Below the pieces are notes generated by a model. It was given only the letters and a program-made list of their open reading frames with translations. It was not told the DNA's origin and ran no database searches. DNA of 64,000 bases from Pseudoxanthomonas mexicana (GTDB lineage Bacteria; Pseudomonadota; Gammaproteobacteria; Xanthomonadales; Xanthomonadaceae). The stretch spans positions 1 through 64,000 of the forward strand of contig NZ_PDWV01000019.1 in the NCBI RefSeq assembly GCF_010093385.1, written 5' to 3'. Positions 36,306-49,043 of this stretch are shown here, one piece after another (positions within the stretch are counted from its first letter, which is position 1; every line of letters starts with the position of its first letter). The position numbers and the translations under genes were made by a program.

Positions 36306-36334
36306 ACGCGGAATGTGAACATTCTGTTGTAATC

Positions 36335-36747: not shown

Positions 36748-36888
36748 TTTCCTGCGGCGCCGTGCGCCGTCGCGTGACGCCTCGTTTCGCCGACACACCG
36801 AACGCCGTGCGCAAGACACGGACCCGTTCCCTCTCCGTCCCGTAGCCTTCGCCACCGGGTCATCCGCTCAAGCACACCAAGGATGCCT

Positions 36889-39222
36889 ATGAACTTCCGC
36901 CCATCCCCGCTGACCGCTGCCCTGCTCCTCGCCATCACGGCCCCGGCCATGGCCGCTCCCACCGGCGATGCCCCCGCCGATGCCGCCATGCAGGCAAAGG
37001 AACTGGACACCGTGGAAGTACACGGTGAACGCGTGCAGAAAGCCAGCTCGCCGAAGTACACCGAGGCGTTGGTGGACACGCCGCAGACCATTACCGTGGT
37101 GACCAGCGAGGTCATGGCGCAGCAGAACCTGCTGGGCCTGAAGGACGTACTCAGCACGCTGCCCGGCATCACCTTCGGCGCAGGCGAAGGCGGCGGAGGG
37201 TATGGCGACAGCATCAACCTGCGCGGCTTCACCGCCAGCAGCGACATCACCACCGACGGGGTACGCGACAGCGCGCAGTACACGCGCAGCGACACGTTCA
37301 ATCTGGAGTCGATCGAACTGATCAACGGCGCCAATTCCGCTATGTCAGGCGCCGGCTCCGTCGGCGGCAACATCAACCTGGTCAGCAAGACCGCGCGCGA
37401 AGGCGACTTCAACACCTTCACCGTGGGCGCAGGATCCGACAAGTACGGCCGCGTGACGGCCGACAGCAACTTCGACTTCGAGAACGGCGTCGCCGTGCGC
37501 CTGAATGCGATGGGGCATACCCAGGATGTCCCGGGCCGCGACGAGGAGTTCAAGCACCGCTGGGGCTTCGCGCCGTCGATCGCGTTCGGCCTGGGTTCCG
37601 ATACCCGCTTCACGCTGAGTTACCTGCACCAGCACGACAACAACATGCCGCAGTACGGCGTGCCGTTCGCGCTGAGCCCATTCAACGACGGCCCACTGCC
37701 CGGCGTTGATCGCGAAACGTACTTCGGTTACCGGAACACGTCGCGCCAGGAAAGCGATGTCGACATGCTGACCGGCGTACTGGAGATGGACTTCGGCGAT
37801 CACGTGAGTCTGCGCTCCCTTGGGCGCCTGCAGCGCGTGGAGCAGTACACGAATGCCACCGCACTGCAGGGCAGCTGGTGCCTGGCAAACGGCACCAATC
37901 CCTATACGGGAGGTGCCTGCGCGACCCTGCCTGTCGGTCCGGGCGTGCCGGCCGGCACCGTCCAGCCGCCGGGCACATGGTCTCCGACCGGCGGGCCTCG
38001 CGGTTTTGTCCGCGATACGGAGAACTTCATCGCGCACAGCCAGACGGACCTGTCGTTCGGTTTCGACACGGGTGCGGTACGCCACGATGTGGTGGCCGGC
38101 GTATCGTTCAGCAAGGAGGATTTCGAGCTCGACAGCGGCTCCGGCTTCCGCAATGCAGACGGCAGCGAACTCGCCAACGACAACAGCAGCTATCCGCTGC
38201 AGGACCTCGACAATCCCTACAACGTGTGGACCGGTCCCAGGAATTTCGTCCGTACCGGCCACACCGAGGGCAGCTTGGACAACCAGGCGGTATACGTGTT
38301 CGATACGTTGAAGTTCAATGACCGGTGGCTGCTGAACCTGGGCGCGCGTTACGAACACAACGAAGGCGATACGGTGACCTATGGCGTGACCGAAGGCCGG
38401 ATCACCGGTGTAACCAACCGCTTCGAGAACGAAGAGGATCTGTTCTCCTACCGCGCAGGCGTGGTCTACAAGCCGGCCGACAACGCCAGCGTCTACCTGT
38501 CGTACGCCAACAGCAAGACGCCATCGAAGACCTCGGTCAACGGCGCCTGCAACGCCAACACGTGCAACGTGGATCCCGAAACCGCGGTCAACGTCGAACT
38601 GGGCACCAAGTGGGACGTGCTGGAGAACCGCCTTGCCCTGACCGCGGCACTGTTCCGCAACGAGCGCCGGAACTACAAGGTGGCCAGCGCCGATCCGCTG
38701 CAGCCCGAGCAGGTACTGGATGGCAAGGCGCGCGTGGACGGTCTTGCGCTGGGCATGGCCGGCAACATCACGCGTGAGTGGGCAGTGTTCGCCAACTACA
38801 CCTTCCTTGACAGCGAAGTACTTCAGAACGCGGCGGATGAAGCCGCGAGCGATCCGGTCAAGGGCCGCGAACTGACCCAGACGCCGCGCCACGCGGCCAG
38901 CCTGTGGACCACTTACGCACTGGGCGACTGGACCTTCGGCTACGGCACGACCTATCAGGGCTCGTTCTATCCGAACAACGCGAACGAGGCCGTGTATCGG
39001 AAGACGGACGCCTACTGGGTGCACCGCGCCATGATCGGTTACCAGATCAACGAACGGATCGGCCTGCAGCTCAACGTCAGCAACCTGTTTGACGAGGAGT
39101 ACTACACGGGCATCCGCAACAACCTGACCGTCGATGCCGCGGGCGTGGTCACCGCCGGCAACGGCTGGGCCAATCCCGGCGAAGGTCGCTCGGCGGTGCT
39201 GACGGCCACGCTCCGCTTCTGA
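36889..39222 (+). CDS. TonB-dependent siderophore receptor (Fiu/PiuA-like)
   Basis: 777 residues from the ATG at 36889, with AAGGA 5 bases upstream (an ATG at 36883 lies inside that site). Signal peptide 1-22 (ending AMAA). A TonB box (LDTVEVHG) precedes the plug domain ([53 protein letters not shown]). The barrel ends in the required aromatic residue (TLRF). The piuC gene next to it and the plug pattern suggest a catecholate or ferric siderophore receptor of the Fiu/PiuA type. Probable repression by Fur-Fe. Confidence 0.92.
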
Positions 39223-39236
39223 GGCGGGCATCGCTC

Positions 39237-39267
39237 GCACCTTGTCCATGCACAATGGACAAGGTGC
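39237..39267 (+). repeat. 13-bp perfect inverted repeat between receptor and piuC
   Basis: GCACCTTGTCCAT, loop GCACA and ATGGACAAGGTGC form a perfect 13-bp stem. It begins 15 bases after the receptor stop and ends 19 bases before the piuC ATG. There is no T-run, so it may stabilise or partly attenuate the upstream message rather than terminate fully. Confidence 0.8.
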
Positions 39268-39286
39268 TCCATTCGAGGTCATCGAC

Positions 39287-39973
39287 ATGCTGCTCGCCAT
39301 ACCCGAGGTGTTGACGCCGGAACAGGTCGCGCAGGCCCGCGCGCAGTTGGACGCCGCCGACTGGGCGCACGGCCGCATCACCGCGGGCTACCAGTCGGCC
39401 AAGGCCAAGGACAATGCTCAGCTGCCGGAGGATTCTCCCGCGGCCCGCGAAGTCGGTGCCCTGATCCTGGACGCGCTGTCGCGTAACAGCACCTTCTTCT
39501 CCGCGGCGCTGCCCAAGCGCATCTATCCGCCCCTGTTCAACCGCTATGACGGCGGCCAGTCGTTCGATTACCACGTGGACAATGCAGTCCGCTACGACCG
39601 AAGCCGCGGCGGCGTCGATCCCGTGCGCACGGACCTGTCGGCCACGCTGTTCCTCAGCGCGCCGGAGGACTACGACGGCGGAGAACTCGTCATCGAGGAC
39701 ACCTTCGGCACACAGCGCGTGAAGCTGCCCGCCGGCCACATGGTGCTGTATCCGGGCACGAGCCTGCACAAGGTGACGCCTGTGACCCGCGGGGCGCGCG
39801 TGGCGTCGTTTTTCTGGATGCAGAGCATGGTCCGCGACGATGGTCATCGCCGGCTGCTGTTCGAACTGGACCTGTCCATCCGCCGCCTGACCGTGGACGT
39901 GCCCGAACATGCCGCCCTGGTCCAGCTGACCGGCGTGTACCACAACCTCCTCAGGCAGTGGGCGGAGACCTGA
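39287..39973 (+). CDS. piuC: Fe(II)/2-oxoglutarate dioxygenase PiuC (PKHD-type hydroxylase)
   Basis: 228 residues from the ATG at 39287, with GAGG 8 bases upstream; the frame opens at 39242 but that part lies in the hairpin. The Fe ligands HxD...H are in [11 protein letters not shown] and [13 protein letters not shown], and the oxoglutarate arginine follows ([10 protein letters not shown]). PiuC/YbiX proteins are the usual partner of PiuA/Fiu receptors; the hydroxylated substrate is unknown, perhaps a siderophore. Confidence 0.92.
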
Positions 39974-40074: not shown

Positions 40075-40527
40075 TTGAACCAACCGCCTGACAACCCGAT
40101 CGGCCTGCACGCACCGAGACCGGCGCGCGCACCCTGGTGGTCGCGGTCGGGCATCGCGGCCGTCGTGATCGCGCTGTCCCTGCTGCTGGGATTCCACTCA
40201 CCGGTCCCTTCCGGCACGGGTCGGGCGGTTGCTGCTGCCCAGACGGCACCCGCGCTGGTCGCAGGCGAGTCCCGCGACCACGCAGGGGGCGCTCGCGAGG
40301 AGCGCCATCGCGACCTCCCCGCGAAGAAGGCACGACTGATTGCCCTGAAGGTGAAAACCACCCGCGCGCCGGGACACATCCGGGACGCCGCATCGCGCCT
40401 GTCTTCATCACGGCGTGAGCATGGCGGTCCGCAACCGGACCCGCGCATGCCGGACGCCTCTGCCGCCCTGCAACGCCTGGATCCGTCATTGAGCCTGCAT
40501 CACGGCCAGGCACCTCCTGTCGCCTGA
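40075..40527 (+). CDS. possible small single-pass membrane protein before the second receptor
   Basis: 150 residues from a TTG. One hydrophobic helix (about residues 26-40, SGIAAVVIALSLLLGFHS) is followed by a basic, Ser/His/Pro-rich tail. There is no recognised domain. Third-position GC is high as in true genes. It occupies the same place relative to a Fur box and a TonB-dependent receptor as the ORF at 36403, though the two do not look alike in sequence. The rare TTG start without a good ribosome site keeps confidence low. Confidence 0.42.
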   Translation: MNQPPDNPIGLHAPRPARAPWWSRSGIAAVVIALSLLLGFHSPVPSGTGRAVAAAQTAPALVAGESRDHAGGAREERHRDLPAKKARLIALKVKTTRAPGHIRDAASRLSSSRREHGGPQPDPRMPDASAALQRLDPSLSLHHGQAPPVA

Positions 40528-40620
40528 TCCGCTCGCGGCCCGTCCGATCCCGGACGCTGCTTTGTGCTGATCGCGCACCCGCGCGACCGCGCCCCTGCTG
40601 CCCACTTCTTCCCGGATCCC

Positions 40621-42999
40621 ATGAACGTCATCCGTACGTCCGTGCGCGCCTCGCTGCGTCGCAACCGCCTTGCCCTCGCCCTGCTGTCCGTCGCCACTGC
40701 CCCCGCCATCGCGCAGCCCGCGGCCGACGCCGCCGATGTCAGCACCCTCGACACCGTTGTCGTCACGGCCTCCGGTTTCGAACAGAAGATCACCGACGCA
40801 CCCGCCAGCATCAGCGTGATCTCCGCGGAGGAACTGCGCCAGCGCCCCTACATCACCCTGATCGACGCCGTGCGCGACCTGGAGGGCGTCGATGTCGGCG
40901 AGACCTCCGACAAGACGGGACAGAAGACCATCAGCATCCGTGGCATGGGGCCGGACTACACGCTGATACTGATCGACGGCAAGCGCCAGAACAACCACGG
41001 CGACATCTACCCCAACTCGTTCGGCGGCAACCAGTTCAACCATATTCCGCCGCTGGACATGATCCAGCGCATCGAAGTGATCCGCGGGCCGGCGTCCACC
41101 CTGTACGGCGCCGACGCGCTGGGCGGGGTGATCAACATCATCACGCGCAAGGTGTCGGACCGCTGGCAGGGCTCGGCCACGCTCGGCCACGGCATCCAGG
41201 AGAACCGCGATTTCGGAAGCGACAGCACCTTCGACTTCATGTTGATGGGGCCGCTGGTGAAGGAACGTTTGGGCCTGGGCGTGCGCGGTTCGTGGTACGA
41301 GCGGGACGCGTCCACGCCCGAATACGAGGCGATCACCGCGCCGGACGGTACGGTGTTCGAGCGGGCACTGGGCTTCGGTGGCGGCGGCAAGACCGTGGAC
41401 AACACCAACAAGAGCGCGGGCGTCACGCTGAGCTGGACGCCGACGGACAGCCAGAGCGTCATCTTCGACTACGACACGTCCAGGCAGGTGTACGACAACA
41501 CGCCGTACATCAACAACCTGGGCACCGAGACGTATCCGTTGGGCACCGTGGACGGACTGGACGGCATCTGGCGCGCGGCGCCAAGGGTAGGATATGCGGC
41601 CGATCAGGAATTCACCCGCGACCAGTGGTCGGTGACCCACAACGGTCAGTGGGCGTTCGGCGACAGCTTCGTCTCGCTTGCGCACATCGACACCGGCAAC
41701 CACGGCCGCACGCTGCCGTTCACCGTTGCCGAGCGGCTGCTGCACCAGGACATCTACTGCAACAACGCCGTTACCTGCGCTACCGGCCCCTATGCCGGAA
41801 TGACGCGTGCGCAGCGCCAGCAACTGGCCATGGATACCTTCCTCCCGCGTCCGAAGCGCACGATGGAAAGCCGCCAGTACACGCTGGACGCCAAACTGGA
41901 TTTCGCCGTCGGCGAGGCGCACCGCTTCGTCGTCGGCGGCCAGGTGATCGACGGCGAACTGGAAGACGGCGTGTTCGGCATGGAAGGCGGCGGCGATGGC
42001 GGCGGCACCGTCCAGGAGCACAGGATGTGGTCGCTGTTCGCGGAGGACAACTGGAATCCACTGGATGCACTGACCATCACACTGGGCCTGCGCCACGACG
42101 ATCACAGCGTGTTCGGCAGCCAGCTCAGCCCACGCGCCTATGCCGTGTGGGACATCAGCACAGCATGGACGTTGAAGGGCGGCGTCAGCACCGGCTTCAA
42201 GACGCCCAAGACCACCGACCTGTACGACGGCGTCACCGGATTCGGCGGCCAGGGCACCACGCCCTTCGTGGGCAACCCGGACCTGCAGCCCGAGACCAGC
42301 GTCAACAGCGAGATCGCGCTGTACTGGACCTCGCCGGACGACGCGCACAACTTCAATCTCACCGTGTTCCGCAACGACTTCGACGACAAGATCGCACGCG
42401 GCGAAACCAGTCTCAGCTGCGAGCAGACCGGCGGCGTGCGCCCATGCGCCAACCTCGGCGACTACGCGCTGCTGGGTTATACGACGTATGCGCAGAACAT
42501 CAACATCGATGAAGTGCGCATCCAGGGCGCGGAAGTCGCCGGACGCTGGGGCATCACGGAGGCCCTGTCGCTGCGCGCCAACTACACCTTCACCGACAGC
42601 GAGCAACTGAGCGGGGCGCAGAAAGGCCTGCCGCTGACCAACACCGCCCGCCACATGGCCAACGCCAGCCTGAACTGGCAAGCCACCGACCGCTTCAGCA
42701 TGCAGCTGCTCGCCGAAGCCCGCTCCAAGCGTTATCGCGACACGATCAACGGGGTCCGCCGGGACTACCAGGACTACACGGTGCTGCATCTGGGCGCGCA
42801 GTACCGATTCAACGAGCATGTGGCGGTGTCGGGCCGCATCAACAACCTGCTCGACGAAGATTTCACCACCTTCCAGACGGTCTTCAGCGACCTCGACAAC
42901 GACGGCATCTATACGTCCAACGAGGTGTCGTATCTGGACGACTACAACAACAAGGACAAGTCGCGGAACCTGTGGCTGAGCCTCAACGTCAGCTTCTGA
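40621..42999 (+). CDS. TonB-dependent receptor (CirA/FepA type)
   Basis: 792 residues from the ATG at 40621. Signal peptide about 1-31 (ending AIAQ), TonB box LDTVVVTASG, plug domain (ITDAPASISVISAEEL; TISIRGMGPDYTLILIDGKR; IEVIRGPASTLYGADALGGV) and a barrel ending in LNVSF. The plug pattern places it in the CirA/FepA/PirA branch that takes up catecholate siderophores. It is a different receptor from the one at 36889 and shares little beyond the fold. Downstream unit iii has its own Fur-like box. Confidence 0.92.
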   Translation: MNVIRTSVRASLRRNRLALALLSVATAPAIAQPAADAADVSTLDTVVVTASGFEQKITDAPASISVISAEELRQRPYITLIDAVRDLEGVDVGETSDKTGQKTISIRGMGPDYTLILIDGKRQNNHGDIYPNSFGGNQFNHIPPLDMIQRIEVIRGPASTLYGADALGGVINIITRKVSDRWQGSATLGHGIQENRDFGSDSTFDFMLMGPLVKERLGLGVRGSWYERDASTPEYEAITAPDGTVFERALGFGGGGKTVDNTNKSAGVTLSWTPTDSQSVIFDYDTSRQVYDNTPYINNLGTETYPLGTVDGLDGIWRAAPRVGYAADQEFTRDQWSVTHNGQWAFGDSFVSLAHIDTGNHGRTLPFTVAERLLHQDIYCNNAVTCATGPYAGMTRAQRQQLAMDTFLPRPKRTMESRQYTLDAKLDFAVGEAHRFVVGGQVIDGELEDGVFGMEGGGDGGGTVQEHRMWSLFAEDNWNPLDALTITLGLRHDDHSVFGSQLSPRAYAVWDISTAWTLKGGVSTGFKTPKTTDLYDGVTGFGGQGTTPFVGNPDLQPETSVNSEIALYWTSPDDAHNFNLTVFRNDFDDKIARGETSLSCEQTGGVRPCANLGDYALLGYTTYAQNINIDEVRIQGAEVAGRWGITEALSLRANYTFTDSEQLSGAQKGLPLTNTARHMANASLNWQATDRFSMQLLAEARSKRYRDTINGVRRDYQDYTVLHLGAQYRFNEHVAVSGRINNLLDEDFTTFQTVFSDLDNDGIYTSNEVSYLDDYNNKDKSRNLWLSLNVSF

Positions 43000-43032: not shown

Positions 43033-43056
43033 CTCTCAATTGAGAGTTATTCTCAT
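43033..43056 (+). promoter_or_regulatory. Fur-like box and palindrome upstream of the PepSY-ApbE operon
   Basis: CTCTCAATTGAGAG (43033-43046) is a perfect 14-base palindrome that overlaps TGAGAGTTATTCTCA (43041-43055), whose TGAGA/TCTCA arms and TTATTCTCAT core resemble the two boxes upstream of the receptors. It lies about 35-55 bases before the PepSY gene. Confidence 0.55.
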
Positions 43057-43088
43057 CCATGATGTAATGGCCGCCTGTTCCTTCCGCC

Positions 43089-43736
43089 TTGAGAGTGCCG
43101 TTGTCCGCTCCCGTTTCCCCTGCCCTCCAGCAACAACGCCGCGGCTTCTGGCTGCGCACGTTGCATCAGTGGCACTGGATCAGTTCGGCCGTCTGCCTGA
43201 TCGGCATGCTGCTGTTCGCCATTACGGGGATCACGCTGAACCACGCCGCGAAGATCGAAGCCTCGCCCGAGGTCACCCAGCTTACCGCCACCCTTCCTGC
43301 ACCCGTCGTCGCCCTGCTGGGCGATCGACAGGAAGGCAATGCCCCGCTGCCCGCGGCCGTGGGCGATTGGCTGGAGCAGGAACTGTCGATATCGATCGGG
43401 CGACGACCTGCCGAATGGTCGGACATGGAGCTCTATCTCTCGATGCCGGGCCCCGGCACCGACGCCTGGCTCAGCATCGATCGCGAAACGGGGGCGGTCG
43501 AGTACGACCGGACCCGCCGCGGCTGGATCTCCTATTTCAACGACCTCCACAAGGGCCGCAACGCCGGGCCGGCGTGGGGATGGTTCCTGGACATCTTCGC
43601 CGTGGCGTGCCTGGTGTTCTGCATCACCGGCCTGTTCCTGCTCTACCTGCACGGGCGGCAGCGCCGCATGACCTGGCCGATGGTGGGCCTGGGCCTGCTG
43701 GTGCCGCTGCTGATCGCGCTGCTTTTCATCCATTGA
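43089..43736 (+). CDS. PepSY-domain inner-membrane protein, probable redox component
   Basis: 215 residues from a TTG at 43089; GTG at 43095 and TTG at 43101 are possible. Three membrane helices (about 31-51, 163-186, 197-214) enclose a periplasmic PepSY-like region. Histidines H26, H29, H52, H154 and H188 flank the helices, as expected if b-type haems are bound. PepSY membrane proteins such as FoxB of Pseudomonas act as siderophore-iron reductases. It is first in the operon with DUF2271, DUF4198, ApbE and a flavoprotein reductase. A reductase role is inference. Confidence 0.85.
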
Positions 43737-43764
43737 TCCCCTTCAACGAACCGCGAGTGACCGC

Positions 43765-44295
43765 ATGTCGAAGATCGCCGTCCACACCACGCTGACCATC
43801 GCGCTCAGCGGCCTGCTGGCCACGCCCGCCTACGCCGCCACGCTCGACATCAATGTCGAGATCCCCAAGCTCAATGTGGCCGAGTACCACCGTCCTTACG
43901 TCGCCGTGTGGATCGAAGGCGCCGACCAGAAGGTCGCCGCCAACCTGTCCGTCTGGTACCAGCAGACCAGCAATTCCGAAGGCCACGGCACCAAGTGGCT
44001 GCCCGACCTGCGCCAGTGGTGGCGCAAGTCCGGCCGCTCGCTGAAGGTGCCGGTGGATGGTGTGACCGGACCCACCAAGCCGGTCGGCAAGCACGCATTG
44101 AGCTTCAGCGACAAGCAGCATCTGGCCAGGCTGGCGCCCGGCCAGTACACGCTGGTCGTCGAGGCCGCGCGCGAAGTCGGTGGCCGTGAACTGCTGAAGA
44201 TTCCTTTCACCTGGCCCGCCAAGGGCGCACCGCAGTCGGGCAAGGCGCAGGGCGCCACCGAGCTGGGCGCCGTCACGCTGACGGTCAAGCCCTGA
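43765..44295 (+). CDS. DUF2271 periplasmic protein, candidate covalent FMN carrier
   Basis: 176 residues, signal peptide 1-24 (ending AYA). DUF2271 beta-rich domain ([50 protein letters not shown]). Residues 98-104 read DGVTGPT, which fits the ApbE target pattern Dxx(S/T)GxT with proline in place of the usual alanine; T104 (codon 44074-44076) would carry FMN by a phosphoester. The transferase is encoded two genes downstream. It would be a periplasmic flavin electron carrier. Confidence 0.85.
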
Positions 44296-44327
44296 TCTTT
44301 TCTTCCATCTATCCGCTGGAGATTCCG

Positions 44328-45140
44328 ATGAAGCGTTCCCTCGCCGTAGCCATCGCCCTGGCCTCCGCCCTCCCCGCCACCGCGCTGGCGCACAAGGCCT
44401 GGTTGCAGCCGTCGCAGACCGTCATCGCCGGCACCAATCCGTGGATCACGGTGGATGCGGCGGTATCCAACGACCTGTTCTACTTCAACCACGTTCCCCT
44501 GCGCACGGAAGGCCTGGCGATCACCGCCCCCGACGGCAGCGCGGTCGAGGCGCAGAACCTGGCCACGGGCAAGTACCGCACGGTGTTCGACGTCGAGCTG
44601 AAGCAGCAGGGCACCTACCGCATCGCCACGATCAACAAGGGCCTGATGGCCCGCTGGGAAGGCGCCGACGGCAAGCCGGGCGGCCTGCGCGGCGCGAAGC
44701 CCGAAGACCTGGCGACCAAGGTGCCGAAGGATGCGAAGAACCTGCAGGTGTCGCAGTCGATCGGCCGCATCGAGACCTTCGTGACCAACGGGGCGCCCAA
44801 CGACACTGCGCTGAAGAGCACCGGAGAAGGCATCGAACTGCTGCCGGTGACGCACCCGAACGACCTGTTCGCGGGAGAAGCGGCCACCTTCCGGATGCTG
44901 GTCGACGGCAAGCCGGCGGCCGGGCTGGAATTCGAGATCACCCGCGGCGGTACGCGCTATCGCAACGCGCAGGAAGAGATCAAGGTCACCACGGATGCCA
45001 ACGGCGAGTTCAGCGTGACCTGGCCGGAAGCCGGCATGTACTGGCTGGAAACCGGCACGCAGGACGACAAGACCACCGTGCCGCAGGCCAAGCAGCGTCG
45101 CCTGAGCTATGTCGCCACGCTGGAAGTGCTGCCCCAGTAA
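44328..45140 (+). CDS. DUF4198 periplasmic protein
   Basis: 270 residues, signal peptide 1-21 (ending ALA) directly followed by HKAWLQPS, the conserved mature N-terminus of DUF4198, whose first residue is a histidine that could bind metal. Two beta-sandwich domains are visible ([57 protein letters not shown]). DUF4198 relates to NikK-like metal-binding periplasmic proteins. In this operon it may present or hold iron. No transporter subunit is adjacent. Confidence 0.87.
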
Positions 45141-45149
45141 GACGGAGCC

Positions 45150-46178
45150 ATGCCGCCGGACGCAGTACCGGCGGCATGGATCGGCATGAACATCTCCCTT
45201 CCCTCCCCCGCTGCGCAGGCAGCGCCGGTGCATGCACTGCACGGGCAGACCATGGGTACGACGTGGTCCGTCCAGTACACCAGCCCGTCGCGCATCGATC
45301 CGCATGCATTGCACGACGCCATCCAGGCGCGCCTGGACGAATTGGTCGCGCAGATGAGTACGTGGGAGGAGGACGCCGACATCATGCGCTTCAACCGCTG
45401 CGCCGCAGGCGAATGGTTCGTCCTGCGGGACGACATGCTGCAGGTGCTCATGGTGGCGCTCGACATCGCGTCACGCAGTGACGGCGCGTTCGACCCCACC
45501 GTGTCGCCGCTGGTGGCGGCATGGGGATTCGGGGCGCATGCGCAAAGGCGGGGTCGCCCCACGCCCGCGGCGCTGGTCGAAGCCCGCTCCCGCGTCGGCT
45601 GGCAGCACCTGCGGCTCGATGCCGCGCAGCACCGCGTCCGCCAGCCGGGCGGTGTGATGCTGGACCTTTCGGCCATCGCCAAGGGCTACGGCGTGGACGT
45701 GGTGGCCGCCCTGCTGCGGCGTCGCGGTATCGATGCCGGCCTGATCGAAGTGGGCGGCGAACTGTATGGCTATGGCCGCAAGGCCGACGGTCAACCATGG
45801 CGCGTGCTGGTGGAATCCTCCCCGGATGAGGAAGCCGACAACGAAGGCCTGGAACCGCGGGTACTGGCACTGGATGGCATGGCCGTCGCCACCTCGGGCG
45901 ACCGCTGGCATGCGTACGCGCAGGATGGTCACCGCTACTCGCACACGATCGACCCGCGCAGCGGCGAGCCGGTGACCGATGCCGCTGCCGCAGTGACCGT
46001 GATCGCGGCCGATGCGATGCACGCCGATGCCTGGGCCACCGCCCTGACCGTCATGGGCACCGAAGAAGGTCCGGCTTTCGCGGCGCATCACGGTCTGGCG
46101 GCGCGCTTCCTGCAACGCACCGGCGAAGGCTTGCGGGAAACCATGACGCCAGCGTTCGAGCAGCACCTGGCGGCATGA
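45150..46178 (+). CDS. apbE: FAD:protein FMN transferase (ApbE)
   Basis: 342 residues from the ATG at 45150 (ATG at 45186 also possible). It moves FMN from FAD onto a threonine or serine of periplasmic proteins. Family blocks: GQTMGTTWSVQY, FDPTVSPLVAAWGFG, LDLSAIAKGYGVD, IEVGGELYGYG, YSHTIDPRSGEPV and the metal-binding DAMHADAWATALTVMG. No typical signal peptide or lipobox is seen, which is unusual for an exported enzyme; the start may be misplaced. The likely substrate is the DUF2271 protein upstream. Confidence 0.92.
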   Translation: MPPDAVPAAWIGMNISLPSPAAQAAPVHALHGQTMGTTWSVQYTSPSRIDPHALHDAIQARLDELVAQMSTWEEDADIMRFNRCAAGEWFVLRDDMLQVLMVALDIASRSDGAFDPTVSPLVAAWGFGAHAQRRGRPTPAALVEARSRVGWQHLRLDAAQHRVRQPGGVMLDLSAIAKGYGVDVVAALLRRRGIDAGLIEVGGELYGYGRKADGQPWRVLVESSPDEEADNEGLEPRVLALDGMAVATSGDRWHAYAQDGHRYSHTIDPRSGEPVTDAAAAVTVIAADAMHADAWATALTVMGTEEGPAFAAHHGLAARFLQRTGEGLRETMTPAFEQHLAA

Positions 46179-47821
46179 GCACGGCAGGCCCTTCACCTCG
46201 GCACGGTAGCGCCGCCCTGGTTGGCAATGCGCTGGTGATGCTGTCGCTGGCCGCGTGCGCCTGGCTGTTCGCTGGCTTGCACGAGGGCGACTGGTGGCAG
46301 GCCAGCCCGTCCAGGGCCCGCGTCTTCATCGCCGCCGCCGCCTTGCTGGCGTATGCCGGACTGGTGGCGGGCATGCTGTCCCGCGCGCGCAAGCACGACA
46401 CGTCGGGACAACCGGTGATGCTGGCCGGATCGGATGCGACGTGGGTGGTGCATGCCAGTCAGACCGGTTTCGCGATGGAGCTGGCCGATATGACCGCCGC
46501 GTCGCTGCGCCACGGCGGCGTTGCGGTCCAGCGCGCGGGGCTGGAACGGCTGGATGCGGCACGGTTGCAGTCCATCGGGCGCGCCGTGTTCGTCGTCAGC
46601 CCCACCGGCGAAGGCGATCCGCCCGACCCCGCGCTCGGCTTCGTCCGCCACGTGATGTCGCAGACACTCCCGCTGCACACGCTGCGCTACGCCGTCCTGG
46701 CCCTGGGCGATCGCGAATACGCGCAGTTCTGCGCCTTCGGCCACCAGCTCGATGACTGGCTGCGGCGACAGGGCGCGCAACCGCTGTTCGACCTGGTGGA
46801 AGTCGACAACGCCGACGACAGTGCCCTGCGCCACTGGCAGCACCATATCGGCCAGTTGGGCGACGGGTCCGACGCGCAGGACTGGTCCACGCCGCGGTAC
46901 GAATCCTGGCGGTTGCGCGATCGTGTCGAGCTGAATCCCGGCAGCATTGGTGGGCCCGTGTTGCCCCTTTCCCTGACACCCGGATCCGGTTCGCTGCCCG
47001 ACTGGGCCGCTGGCGACATCGCCGAGATCGGGCCGTGCCGCGCCATGGCCGAGGTCGACGAGGTCCTGCAGCGCACGGGCCTGGCGGGCGATGTTCCCGT
47101 GCAGTGGCAGGACCACGCGCAACCGCTGGCGCAGGTACTTGTCCGCAGCCAATGGCCCGTCGCGGACCATGAGCTCTGGCGCGGAGATGCGCAGGCGCTC
47201 GCCGATGCCTGCACGCCCCTGCCGCACCGGGAATACTCCATTGCGTCCCTTCCCGGCGATGGCGCGCTGCACCTGCTGGTGCGCCTGATGCATCACGCAG
47301 ACGGTACCGCCGGCCTGGGCAGCGGCTGGCTGTGCCGGCATGCGCAGCCGGGAGACGCCATCGCCCTGCGCATCCGCCGCAATCCGAATTTTCATCCGCC
47401 CGCCGCCGATGTACCGATGATCCTGATCGGCAACGGCACGGGCCTGGCGGGTCTGTGCGCCCGCCTGAAAGCGCGGGCGCTGGCCGGCGCGACGCGCAAC
47501 TGGCTACTGTTCGGCGAGCGCCAGCGCGCGCACGACGCCTTCCTCGCCGACGAACTGGCGGCATGGCAGGCGCAAGGCCTGCTCCCACATCTCGACCTGA
47601 CTTTCTCGCGCGATGGCGACACCCACCGCTACGTCCAACATGCGCTGGCTTCGCACGCGAACCGGCTGCGGCAGTGGGTCGAAGAAGGCGCGGCGGTGTA
47701 CGTATGCGGAAGCCTGGCCGGCATGGCGCCCGACGTGGACGCCACGCTGCGCCGCATCCTGGGCGAGGACAAGGTCGAAGCCCTGCGGACCGCCGGGCGC
47801 TATCGCCGGGACGTGTACTGA
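46175..47821 (+). CDS. membrane-anchored flavodoxin-reductase (sulfite reductase alpha-like)
   Basis: 548 residues. Two N-terminal membrane helices (about 16-35 and 47-67) precede a flavodoxin domain (VVHASQTGFAMELADM; VSPTGEGDPP; LALGDREYAQFC), a ferredoxin-reductase FAD domain (REYSIAS near 354) and an NADPH domain (LIGNGTGLAGLC; VYVCGSLAGMAPDV). The layout is that of CPR/CysJ with FMN, FAD and NADPH, tethered to the inner membrane. It would pass electrons from NADPH to the PepSY protein. It overlaps apbE by 4 bases. CysI is absent nearby, so sulfite reduction is unlikely. Confidence 0.9.
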   Translation: MSTAGPSPRHGSAALVGNALVMLSLAACAWLFAGLHEGDWWQASPSRARVFIAAAALLAYAGLVAGMLSRARKHDTSGQPVMLAGSDATWVVHASQTGFAMELADMTAASLRHGGVAVQRAGLERLDAARLQSIGRAVFVVSPTGEGDPPDPALGFVRHVMSQTLPLHTLRYAVLALGDREYAQFCAFGHQLDDWLRRQGAQPLFDLVEVDNADDSALRHWQHHIGQLGDGSDAQDWSTPRYESWRLRDRVELNPGSIGGPVLPLSLTPGSGSLPDWAAGDIAEIGPCRAMAEVDEVLQRTGLAGDVPVQWQDHAQPLAQVLVRSQWPVADHELWRGDAQALADACTPLPHREYSIASLPGDGALHLLVRLMHHADGTAGLGSGWLCRHAQPGDAIALRIRRNPNFHPPAADVPMILIGNGTGLAGLCARLKARALAGATRNWLLFGERQRAHDAFLADELAAWQAQGLLPHLDLTFSRDGDTHRYVQHALASHANRLRQWVEEGAAVYVCGSLAGMAPDVDATLRRILGEDKVEALRTAGRYRRDVY

Positions 47822-48704: not shown

Positions 48705-49043
48705 TCAGCGCCGCGCGACCGGCTTGGCGGGCGCCGCGGTTGCGGCAGCCGGCTTGCGCGCCGGAGCGGCGCCCGTGCGCAGCTCGATGCGGTCGCGGTT
48801 CTGCTCGACGATGCTCAGGCCGATGCCCTTCACCATGGCGAGCTCCTCGGCGCTCTTGAACGGGCCGTTGGCCTTGCGGTACTCGACGATCGCGGCCGCC
48901 TTCGACGGACCGACCCCGACCAGCACGCGATCCAGCGCGGCCGCGTCGGCGGTGTTGATGTTGACCTTCTCGGTGGCCAGCGCCTGCGCGGCGATCAGCA
49001 GCGACAGGACGGCGGCGAACACGGTGTGGACGAACGACTTCAT
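48705..49043 (-). CDS. ComEA-like helix-hairpin-helix DNA-binding protein
   Basis: 112 residues with a signal peptide (ending ALA, about 23). Two HhH units: VNINTADAAALDRVLVGVGP and ELAMVKGIGLSIVEQNRDRI. An Ala/Pro/Lys-rich tail follows. It fits the short ComEA form of Gram-negatives, a periplasmic DNA-binding protein used in DNA uptake; a single TM anchor is absent. Whether the strain is naturally competent cannot be judged here. Confidence 0.88.
   Translation of the reverse strand: MKSFVHTVFAAVLSLLIAAQALATEKVNINTADAAALDRVLVGVGPSKAAAIVEYRKANGPFKSAEELAMVKGIGLSIVEQNRDRIELRTGAAPARKPAAATAAPAKPVARR

Follow-up and report, generated by a model that had tools for sequence, protein, structure and literature searches.

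An ApbE flavin transferase without a recognised export signal in an iron-linked PepSY-DUF2271 operon of Pseudoxanthomonas mexicana

The five-gene operon described here lies in a 64,000-nucleotide stretch of the Pseudoxanthomonas mexicana genome (assembly GCF_010093385.1, contig NZ_PDWV01000019.1, positions 1 to 64,000; hereafter the window) and encodes a PepSY membrane protein, a DUF2271 protein, a DUF4198 protein, an ApbE flavin transferase and a reductase. It is a further member of a published, widespread iron-linked system, and the operon, its gene order, its control by Fur and the hypothesis that it reduces ferric iron are already in print (PMC3751524, PMC8238504, PMC12004947, PMC7190382; all papers are cited for the parts of them that were available). 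What appears from sequence to be new is a variant in which ApbE lacks a leader, and this novelty would turn on the location of that enzyme. We consider it somewhat probable that the operon encodes an iron-repressed PepSY-like flavinylation system in which a cytosolic ApbE flavinylates the DUF2271 pre-protein before or during export by Sec.

The operon and its ApbE

The Fur-like box and the five genes are as follows (FMN, flavin mononucleotide; FAD, flavin adenine dinucleotide; NADPH, reduced nicotinamide adenine dinucleotide phosphate).

43041..43055, forward strand: Fur-like box TGAGAGTTATTCTCA (motif match)
43089..43736, forward strand: PepSY_TM_like_2 protein of the inner membrane, predicted to bear heme and conduct electrons (PF16357, 287.8 bits; TTG start assumed)
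43765..44295, forward strand: DUF2271 protein with a Sec-type signal peptide, predicted FMN acceptor Thr104 (PF10029, 169.8 bits)
44328..45140, forward strand: DUF4198 periplasmic protein with a signal peptide (PF10670, 199.2 bits)
45150..46178, forward strand: ApbE FMN transferase without a recognised signal peptide, lipobox or transmembrane segment (PF02424, 278.3 bits)
46175..47821, forward strand: reductase with N-terminal hydrophobic segments (by eye), a flavodoxin (FMN) domain (Flavodoxin_1 PF00258, 83.2 bits) and a CysJ-like FAD/NADPH region

The intergenic spacings are 28, 32, 9 and -4 bases, the last being an ATGA overlap. The positions of the open reading frames (ORFs), their Pfam matches and these gaps confirm the Fur-like box and the five tightly ordered genes noticed in an initial annotation of this DNA, whose list of components (PepSY, DUF2271, DUF4198, ApbE and an FMN/FAD/NADPH reductase) also fits the domain matches. 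The role on exported proteins that the same annotation gave to ApbE, which is the usual one, fits the window less well, since its ApbE is itself without an export signal in leader scans. The protein starts MPPDAVPAAWIGMNISLPSPAAQAAPVHALHGQTMGTTW, without a hydrophobic core or lipobox, and its hydropathy stays below 1.6 before the TMGT core, short of the level taken to mark an exported ApbE. The lack of a recognised export signal suggests that flavin attachment takes place in the cytosol, ahead of export of the carrier.

The same absence was seen in relatives. Leaders were scored as the best charge-free 11-mer (for ApbE, before the TMGT core) with a hydropathy cut-off of 1.8, a value passed by 81 of 81 DUF2271 and 80 of 80 DUF4198 leaders of the family Lysobacteraceae; 2.0 was passed by 67 of the 81 DUF2271 leaders. 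Only one of the 79 Lysobacteraceae operon ApbEs reached 1.8 (L083, in read-through before the likely start), and by eye a leader was recognised in none of the 79. A loose lipobox pattern in six of these rows was also judged to be read-through before the likely start, and none of the six has a stretch at 2.0. A more diverse set comprised 60 of 79 places above cut-off, from 59 genomes; the window, the two genomes of L002 and L003, one further copy each in G603 and G508, and the 14 places with the weakest matches were left out. Four of its 36 unfused operon ApbEs pass 1.8 (L140, L125, L172 and L175), compared with 47 of 56 DUF2271 and 51 of 51 DUF4198 control leaders; four of the 36 ApbEs belong to Lysobacteraceae. 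ApbEs encoded outside the operon passed 2.0 in 17 of 17 cases, and all four ApbE-DUF2271 fusions carry a leader. In a quick 62-row tree, from which the second ApbEs of genomes with more than one were left out, the operon ApbEs fall into a single clade of 41 rows that takes in L140 (Shimodaira-Hasegawa-like approximate likelihood ratio test support of 96). All 41 rows retain the catalytic His, Asp and Ser, in columns equated by motif with H257, D285 and S241 of Vibrio cholerae ApbE (PMC12052999); the window ApbE also aligns with solved ApbEs.

Genome scans tie the leaderless enzyme to DUF2271. The genome that contains the window has one ApbE, one DUF2271 and no match to FMN_bind. ApbE was found in 59 of the 59 diverse genomes scanned, in a survey that left out one of four ApbEs in G545 and one weak ApbE each in G603 and G508. 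A leaderless operon ApbE occurs in 35 of these genomes, with the weak cases L125, L172 and L175 counted in. It is the sole ApbE in 28, and FMN_bind was found at E 0.001 in none of the 28 (0 of 25 without the three weak-leader genomes). The other seven have a second ApbE, which bears a leader in every case (Tat-like, lipoprotein or transmembrane), and all seven have FMN_bind; across the 28 and seven genomes the association of FMN_bind with a second ApbE gives a Fisher p of 1.5e-7, uncorrected for kinship. Where the DUF2271 locus is free of ApbE (20 genomes), a leader-bearing ApbE elsewhere and FMN_bind are both present in 20 of 20. The remaining four genomes have a fused, leader-bearing ApbE and no FMN_bind, and one of them, G602, additionally has an operon ApbE with a lipobox. 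The simplest reading of these distributions is that DUF2271 is the substrate of the leaderless ApbE and periplasmic FMN_bind proteins are not, which is what one would expect if the enzyme stays in the cytosol.

It could instead be that the electron system is the same but that ApbE is exported in some unrecognised way and flavinylates DUF2271 in the periplasm. A review places the ApbE for secreted targets in the periplasm (PMC12052999); L140, in the same clade, has a clear lipobox; and the four ApbE-DUF2271 fusions bear leaders. An N-terminal RVLIP-like motif (R-V-L-[IV]-P), not evident in Lysobacteraceae ApbEs, was observed in 18 of the 36 diverse operon ApbEs (L124, L125, L141, L143, L144, L149, L151, L153, L158-L160, L162, L163, L165, L169, L170, L172 and L173), and this motif could also be held to favour a periplasmic enzyme, as could the weak hydrophobic N-termini of L125, L172 and L175. 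However, an in-frame stop upstream leaves at most 25 codons before the TMGT core in 11 of the 79 Lysobacteraceae ApbEs, scant space for a signal peptide and linker, and a periplasmic enzyme could use FMN_bind substrates, for which no match was found in the 28 genomes relying solely on the operon ApbE. We regard a periplasmic ApbE as rather unlikely.

The flavin acceptor and its export

The initial annotation had proposed that DUF2271 carries FMN, and this is supported in part. Asp98 and Thr104 are invariant in 23 of 23 aligned rows, but the window motif, DGVTGPT at residues 98-104, is not the canonical [S/T]GA[S/T]; it does match the relaxed pattern D-x-x-[ST]-x-[AP]-[ST]. Among 81 Lysobacteraceae rows the motif is DGVTGPT in 76, DGVSGPT in three, and DGITGPT and DGLTGPT in one each. 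Proline replaces alanine in 15 of 40 diverse loci with a local ApbE (four of the 15 being Lysobacteraceae) and in none of 20 without one (Fisher p 0.001, uncorrected for kinship). Since a seven-residue motif suffices for ApbE (PMC12052999), a folded native substrate may be unnecessary. A structure model of DUF2271 from the 23 rows had a mean pLDDT (predicted local distance difference test) of 61.7 and fell below 50 over residues 89-104, which include the motif, so that it was too weak to use.

If DUF2271 were no longer flavinylated, the TGPT motif would be degenerate, ApbE would serve a cytosolic protein, and PepSY would reduce iron directly, as proposed for FoxB. The deviation from [S/T]GA[S/T] in all 81 Lysobacteraceae rows and the cytosolic look of ApbE could be taken this way. 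Within that family, however, the acceptor Thr never varies, nor does the Asp six positions ahead of it, and no FMN_bind substrate was found in the window genome. Moreover, ApbE is present in 82 of the 83 Lysobacteraceae genomes with DUF2271, as against 20 of the 67 without it. Loss of flavinylation seems improbable to us.

The DUF2271 leaders appear from their sequences to be of Sec type. PepSY-like systems are described as having at least one target gene with a signal peptide or lipidation site (PMC8238504), and the window DUF2271 leader, with a hydropathy of 1.88, agrees with this. An RR pair occurs in three of the 36 DUF2271 leaders beside a local ApbE. Flavinylation of DUF2271 in the cytosol has a precedent, in that co-expression of a signal-peptide-truncated DUF2271 with ApbE in Escherichia coli yielded flavinylated DUF2271 (PMC8238504); in that paper, flavinylation of DUF2271 by its cognate ApbE is shown for Amantichitinum ursilacus only. 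The fumarate reductase ApbE of Klebsiella pneumoniae, like that of the window, has no signal peptide, although its substrate is a soluble cytoplasmic enzyme whereas the presumed substrate in the window has a Sec-type signal (PMC12052999). Among the listed matches of the literature searches, which took in neither subscription papers nor supplements, we found none that discusses an exported substrate served by a leaderless ApbE.

Several observations weigh against flavinylation in the cytosol. Assignment of leaders relied on hydropathy and visual inspection instead of SignalP, and the scores overlap somewhat in the diverse set, where nine of 56 DUF2271 leaders fall below 1.8. The ApbE N-termini of L125, L172 and L175 are weak and interrupted by prolines, yet exceed 1.8, and the lipobox of L140 lies within the operon clade. 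Four of the 20 genomes with an ApbE-free DUF2271 locus (L233, L235, L238 and L239) encode, in addition to a leader-bearing ApbE, an ApbE-like protein without a leader away from that locus. For A. ursilacus, the published assay used an ApbE called signal-peptide-truncated (PMC8238504), which implies a leader in that species. Changing the motif Ala to Val in the K. pneumoniae substrate lowers flavinylation to about half (PMC12052999), so Pro in place of Ala could lower it as well. Those DUF2271 leaders that lie beside a local ApbE are not significantly less hydrophobic (p 0.058), and few of them have the RR pair. Finally, no documentation of Sec export of an FMN-carrying pre-protein was found in the literature examined.

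With these points in view, we put forward a broader form of the cytosolic reading as roughly an even proposition. In this form DUF2271 would receive its FMN in the cytosol, the compartment in which FAD is made, from a dedicated clade of leaderless ApbEs, and the unfolded, flavin-bearing pre-protein would then pass through Sec; in other lineages an exported ApbE, or an exported ApbE-DUF2271 fusion, would serve the same family.

Electron route, iron and regulation

In the proposed system the membrane-anchored FMN/FAD reductase would draw electrons from NADPH and pass them to heme in the PepSY protein. PepSY would carry them across the membrane to FMN bound covalently at Thr104 of periplasmic DUF2271, and DUF2271 would reduce ferric iron or a ferric siderophore in the periplasm. 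The DUF4198 protein, whose predicted first mature residue, His22, is invariant in 23 of 23 rows, would probably bind or escort the released metal; most of the family of a nickel-binding DUF4198 member retain such a His (PMC12537917). The resulting Fe(II) could be imported by FeoB, of which the window's genome encodes one, elsewhere. The operon ApbE would add FMN to the DUF2271 pre-protein in the cytosol before or during Sec export. This would set it apart from the ApbEs found where FMN_bind proteins occur, which are lipoproteins, Tat-like or membrane-anchored.

All 137 aligned PepSY rows, near-copies among them, have His29 and His154, and 131 have His52; the two invariant residues are as expected of heme ligands, and PepSY is putatively heme-binding. 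A sequence search of solved structures gave no match for PepSY or DUF2271 at E 5. The window reductase has the flavodoxin, FAD and NADPH regions of a diflavin reductase, an arrangement that it shares with CysJ and NADPH-cytochrome P450 reductase. Its C-terminal half aligns with the FAD/NADPH region, and its best solved relatives are the NADPH sulfite reductase flavoprotein 6efv and P450 reductases. The best NCBIfam model is cysJ at 222 bits, under the curated cut-off, and the protein is therefore not CysJ itself; unlike CysJ it has N-terminal hydrophobic segments (by eye), and the operon is without a sulfite reductase beta subunit. Fusions in relatives support links between the steps. PepSY_TM, flavodoxin and NAD-binding domains are joined in L180, L181 and L183, each adjoining DUF2271 and ApbE (three of the four such ORFs were scanned); PepSY is fused to DUF2271 in L166, and ApbE to DUF2271 in L174 and L179, two of the four such ORFs among the 60 diverse loci. 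The route from NADPH through the reductase and PepSY to DUF2271, as initially annotated, thus fits the domains, the fusions and published work, although it had already been proposed in print (PMC8238504, PMC3751524, PMC12004947).

FoxB, to our knowledge, has no DUF2271, ApbE or reductase partners. Both FoxB and HiuB of Caulobacter are PepSY membrane proteins with histidine-ligated hemes, and the HiuB gene, like the window PepSY gene, adjoins one for a TonB-dependent receptor (PMC11334425, PMC12424826). As described there, the hiuABC operon is without a DUF2271, ApbE or reductase gene, and the window PepSY is of the short PF16357 form. Also similar to the window operon are the PepSY-like flavinylation systems of Meheust et al. 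(2021, eLife, PMC8238504), which combine PepSY, ApbE, DUF2271 and DUF4198. These were defined by PF03929 or PF16357 within five genes of ApbE or DUF2271; in the window PF16357 adjoins DUF2271. That work reported 3220 clusters and 1077 PepSY-like genes with an NAD-binding domain, and proposed ferric reduction. Its systems are described as extracytosolic flavinylation, and the parts of the paper available do not discuss a leaderless ApbE or the TGPT motif. Caulobacter crescentus CC3059-CC3063 (CCNA_03155-03159) match the five window genes in both kind and order. This operon is repressed by Fur, as seen by microarray, lacZ fusion and electrophoretic mobility shift assay (PMC3751524), and its transposon mutants are unfit in ethylenediaminetetraacetate (EDTA; PMC12004947).

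The window box differs by one mismatch from a Fur-like palindrome. The pattern TGAGAATNATTCTCA occurs at three or fewer mismatches at three sites in the 64 kb, where 0.49 are expected and three of 100 shuffles reach three. The sites are at 36334 (before the first receptor gene), 40007 (in the interval between the dioxygenase and second receptor genes) and 43041 (before PepSY). Allowing at most one mismatch gives two sites in the whole genome and none with a reversed control. Regions upstream of PepSY score at least 12 of 16 in 50 of 81 Lysobacteraceae (the window included), 27 of 51 diverse loci and three of 1320 simulated sequences; the count of 50 is not blind, because the pattern was picked after the box in the window had been seen. 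With an E. coli-type 19-mer Fur consensus, at least 13 positions agree in eight of 81 Lysobacteraceae, 21 of 51 diverse loci and 25 of 1320 shuffles; on this scale the window box reaches 11 of 19, which tells against iron repression. Taken with the Caulobacter precedent, the box matches make iron regulation of the window operon likely, and the iron link initially annotated agrees with the Fur-like box, the domains and published Fur control (PMC3751524). Reduction of ferric or siderophore iron as the end point is suggested by the neighbouring genes, the box and published phenotypes.

The end point could alternatively be another metal or a respiratory or redox-repair target, with PepSY supporting copper or nickel handling. 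A DUF4198 member binds Ni2+ with a dissociation constant of 18 nM (PMC12537917). A search of solved structures with the window DUF4198 protein gave two weak matches to another enzyme (E 0.035 and 0.067). CrpH, another PepSY_TM protein, supports heme-copper oxidases (PMC13038864). The Fur-like box, the siderophore-type receptors upstream, the presence of a YbiX-type dioxygenase ahead of PepSY in 78 of 80 relatives, and, for the Caulobacter operon, control by Fur and a fitness effect in EDTA (PMC3751524, PMC12004947) all argue against a non-iron end point, to which we give little credence.

Neighbouring genes and relatives

Three genes upstream of the operon are as follows.

36883..39222, forward strand: Fiu-like TonB-dependent siderophore receptor (CciT/PiuA-like; PF00593/PF07715; TIGR01783 above cut-off)
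39242..39973, forward strand: PKHD-type Fe(II)/2-oxoglutarate dioxygenase (YbiX/PiuC/CciO-like; NCBIfam NF003975, 368 bits, above cut-off)
40618..42999, forward strand: CirA/IreA-like TonB-dependent receptor (listed ORF start 40564; PF00593/PF07715; catecholate receptor models under cut-off)

For the first receptor the best NCBIfam model is Fiu, at 423 bits, under that model's cut-off. This receptor and the dioxygenase resemble CciT-CciO, for which EDTA phenotypes emerged from the screen that also picked up the Caulobacter PepSY operon (PMC12004947); in Caulobacter the cciT-cciO pair lies away from that operon, whereas the similar pair in the window adjoins it. A small ORF at 40075-40527, between the dioxygenase and second receptor genes and 3' of a Fur-like site, has no Pfam match and one relative (L024, 41% identity) among the 80 loci searched. 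Downstream, a short leader-bearing protein at 48705-49043 on the reverse strand resembles by eye, in translation, a ComEA-type helix-hairpin-helix protein.

P. japonensis and Pseudoxanthomonas sp. 3HH-4 have DUF2271 proteins with 97% identity to that of the window. Of 80 named loci in Lysobacteraceae, 78 have all five genes, complete and in the same order, and the other two, L030 and L046, are truncated. In 78 of the 80, PepSY is preceded by a dioxygenase homologue, at most 300 bases away in 14. In six of these 14 (L056, L086-L089 and L097) it seemingly overlaps PepSY by 3-27 bases, with starts extrapolated from the alignment, which suggests a single operon from receptor through reductase in Luteimonas and relatives. 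Receptor, dioxygenase, PepSY, DUF2271, DUF4198 and ApbE genes follow one another on plasmids of Methylobacterium currus and Sphingomonas parapaucimobilis, and a plasmid of Acidovorax sp. DW039 has the five-gene block; the annotated ApbE starts in the three named plasmids agree by eye with a leaderless N-terminus. Among the 60 diverse loci, PepSY, DUF2271 and DUF4198 all lie within the fetched stretch in 50, a local ApbE is absent in 20, and ApbE-DUF2271 and PepSY-reductase fusions occur in four each.

The leaderless ApbE matters more than membership in this operon family itself. Covalent flavinylation of exported proteins is usually placed in the periplasm, where FAD is needed from outside the cytosol. 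If DUF2271 were flavinylated before translocation, this problem of FAD supply would be gone, and Sec would have to tolerate a bulky aromatic adduct. The correlation across genomes, in which those with a leaderless operon ApbE have FMN_bind only alongside a second, leader-bearing ApbE, amounts to a directly testable prediction. If the proposal is true, maturation of the same carrier would occur in the cytosol in some lineages and outside it in others, and Sec would transport chains that bear covalent FMN.

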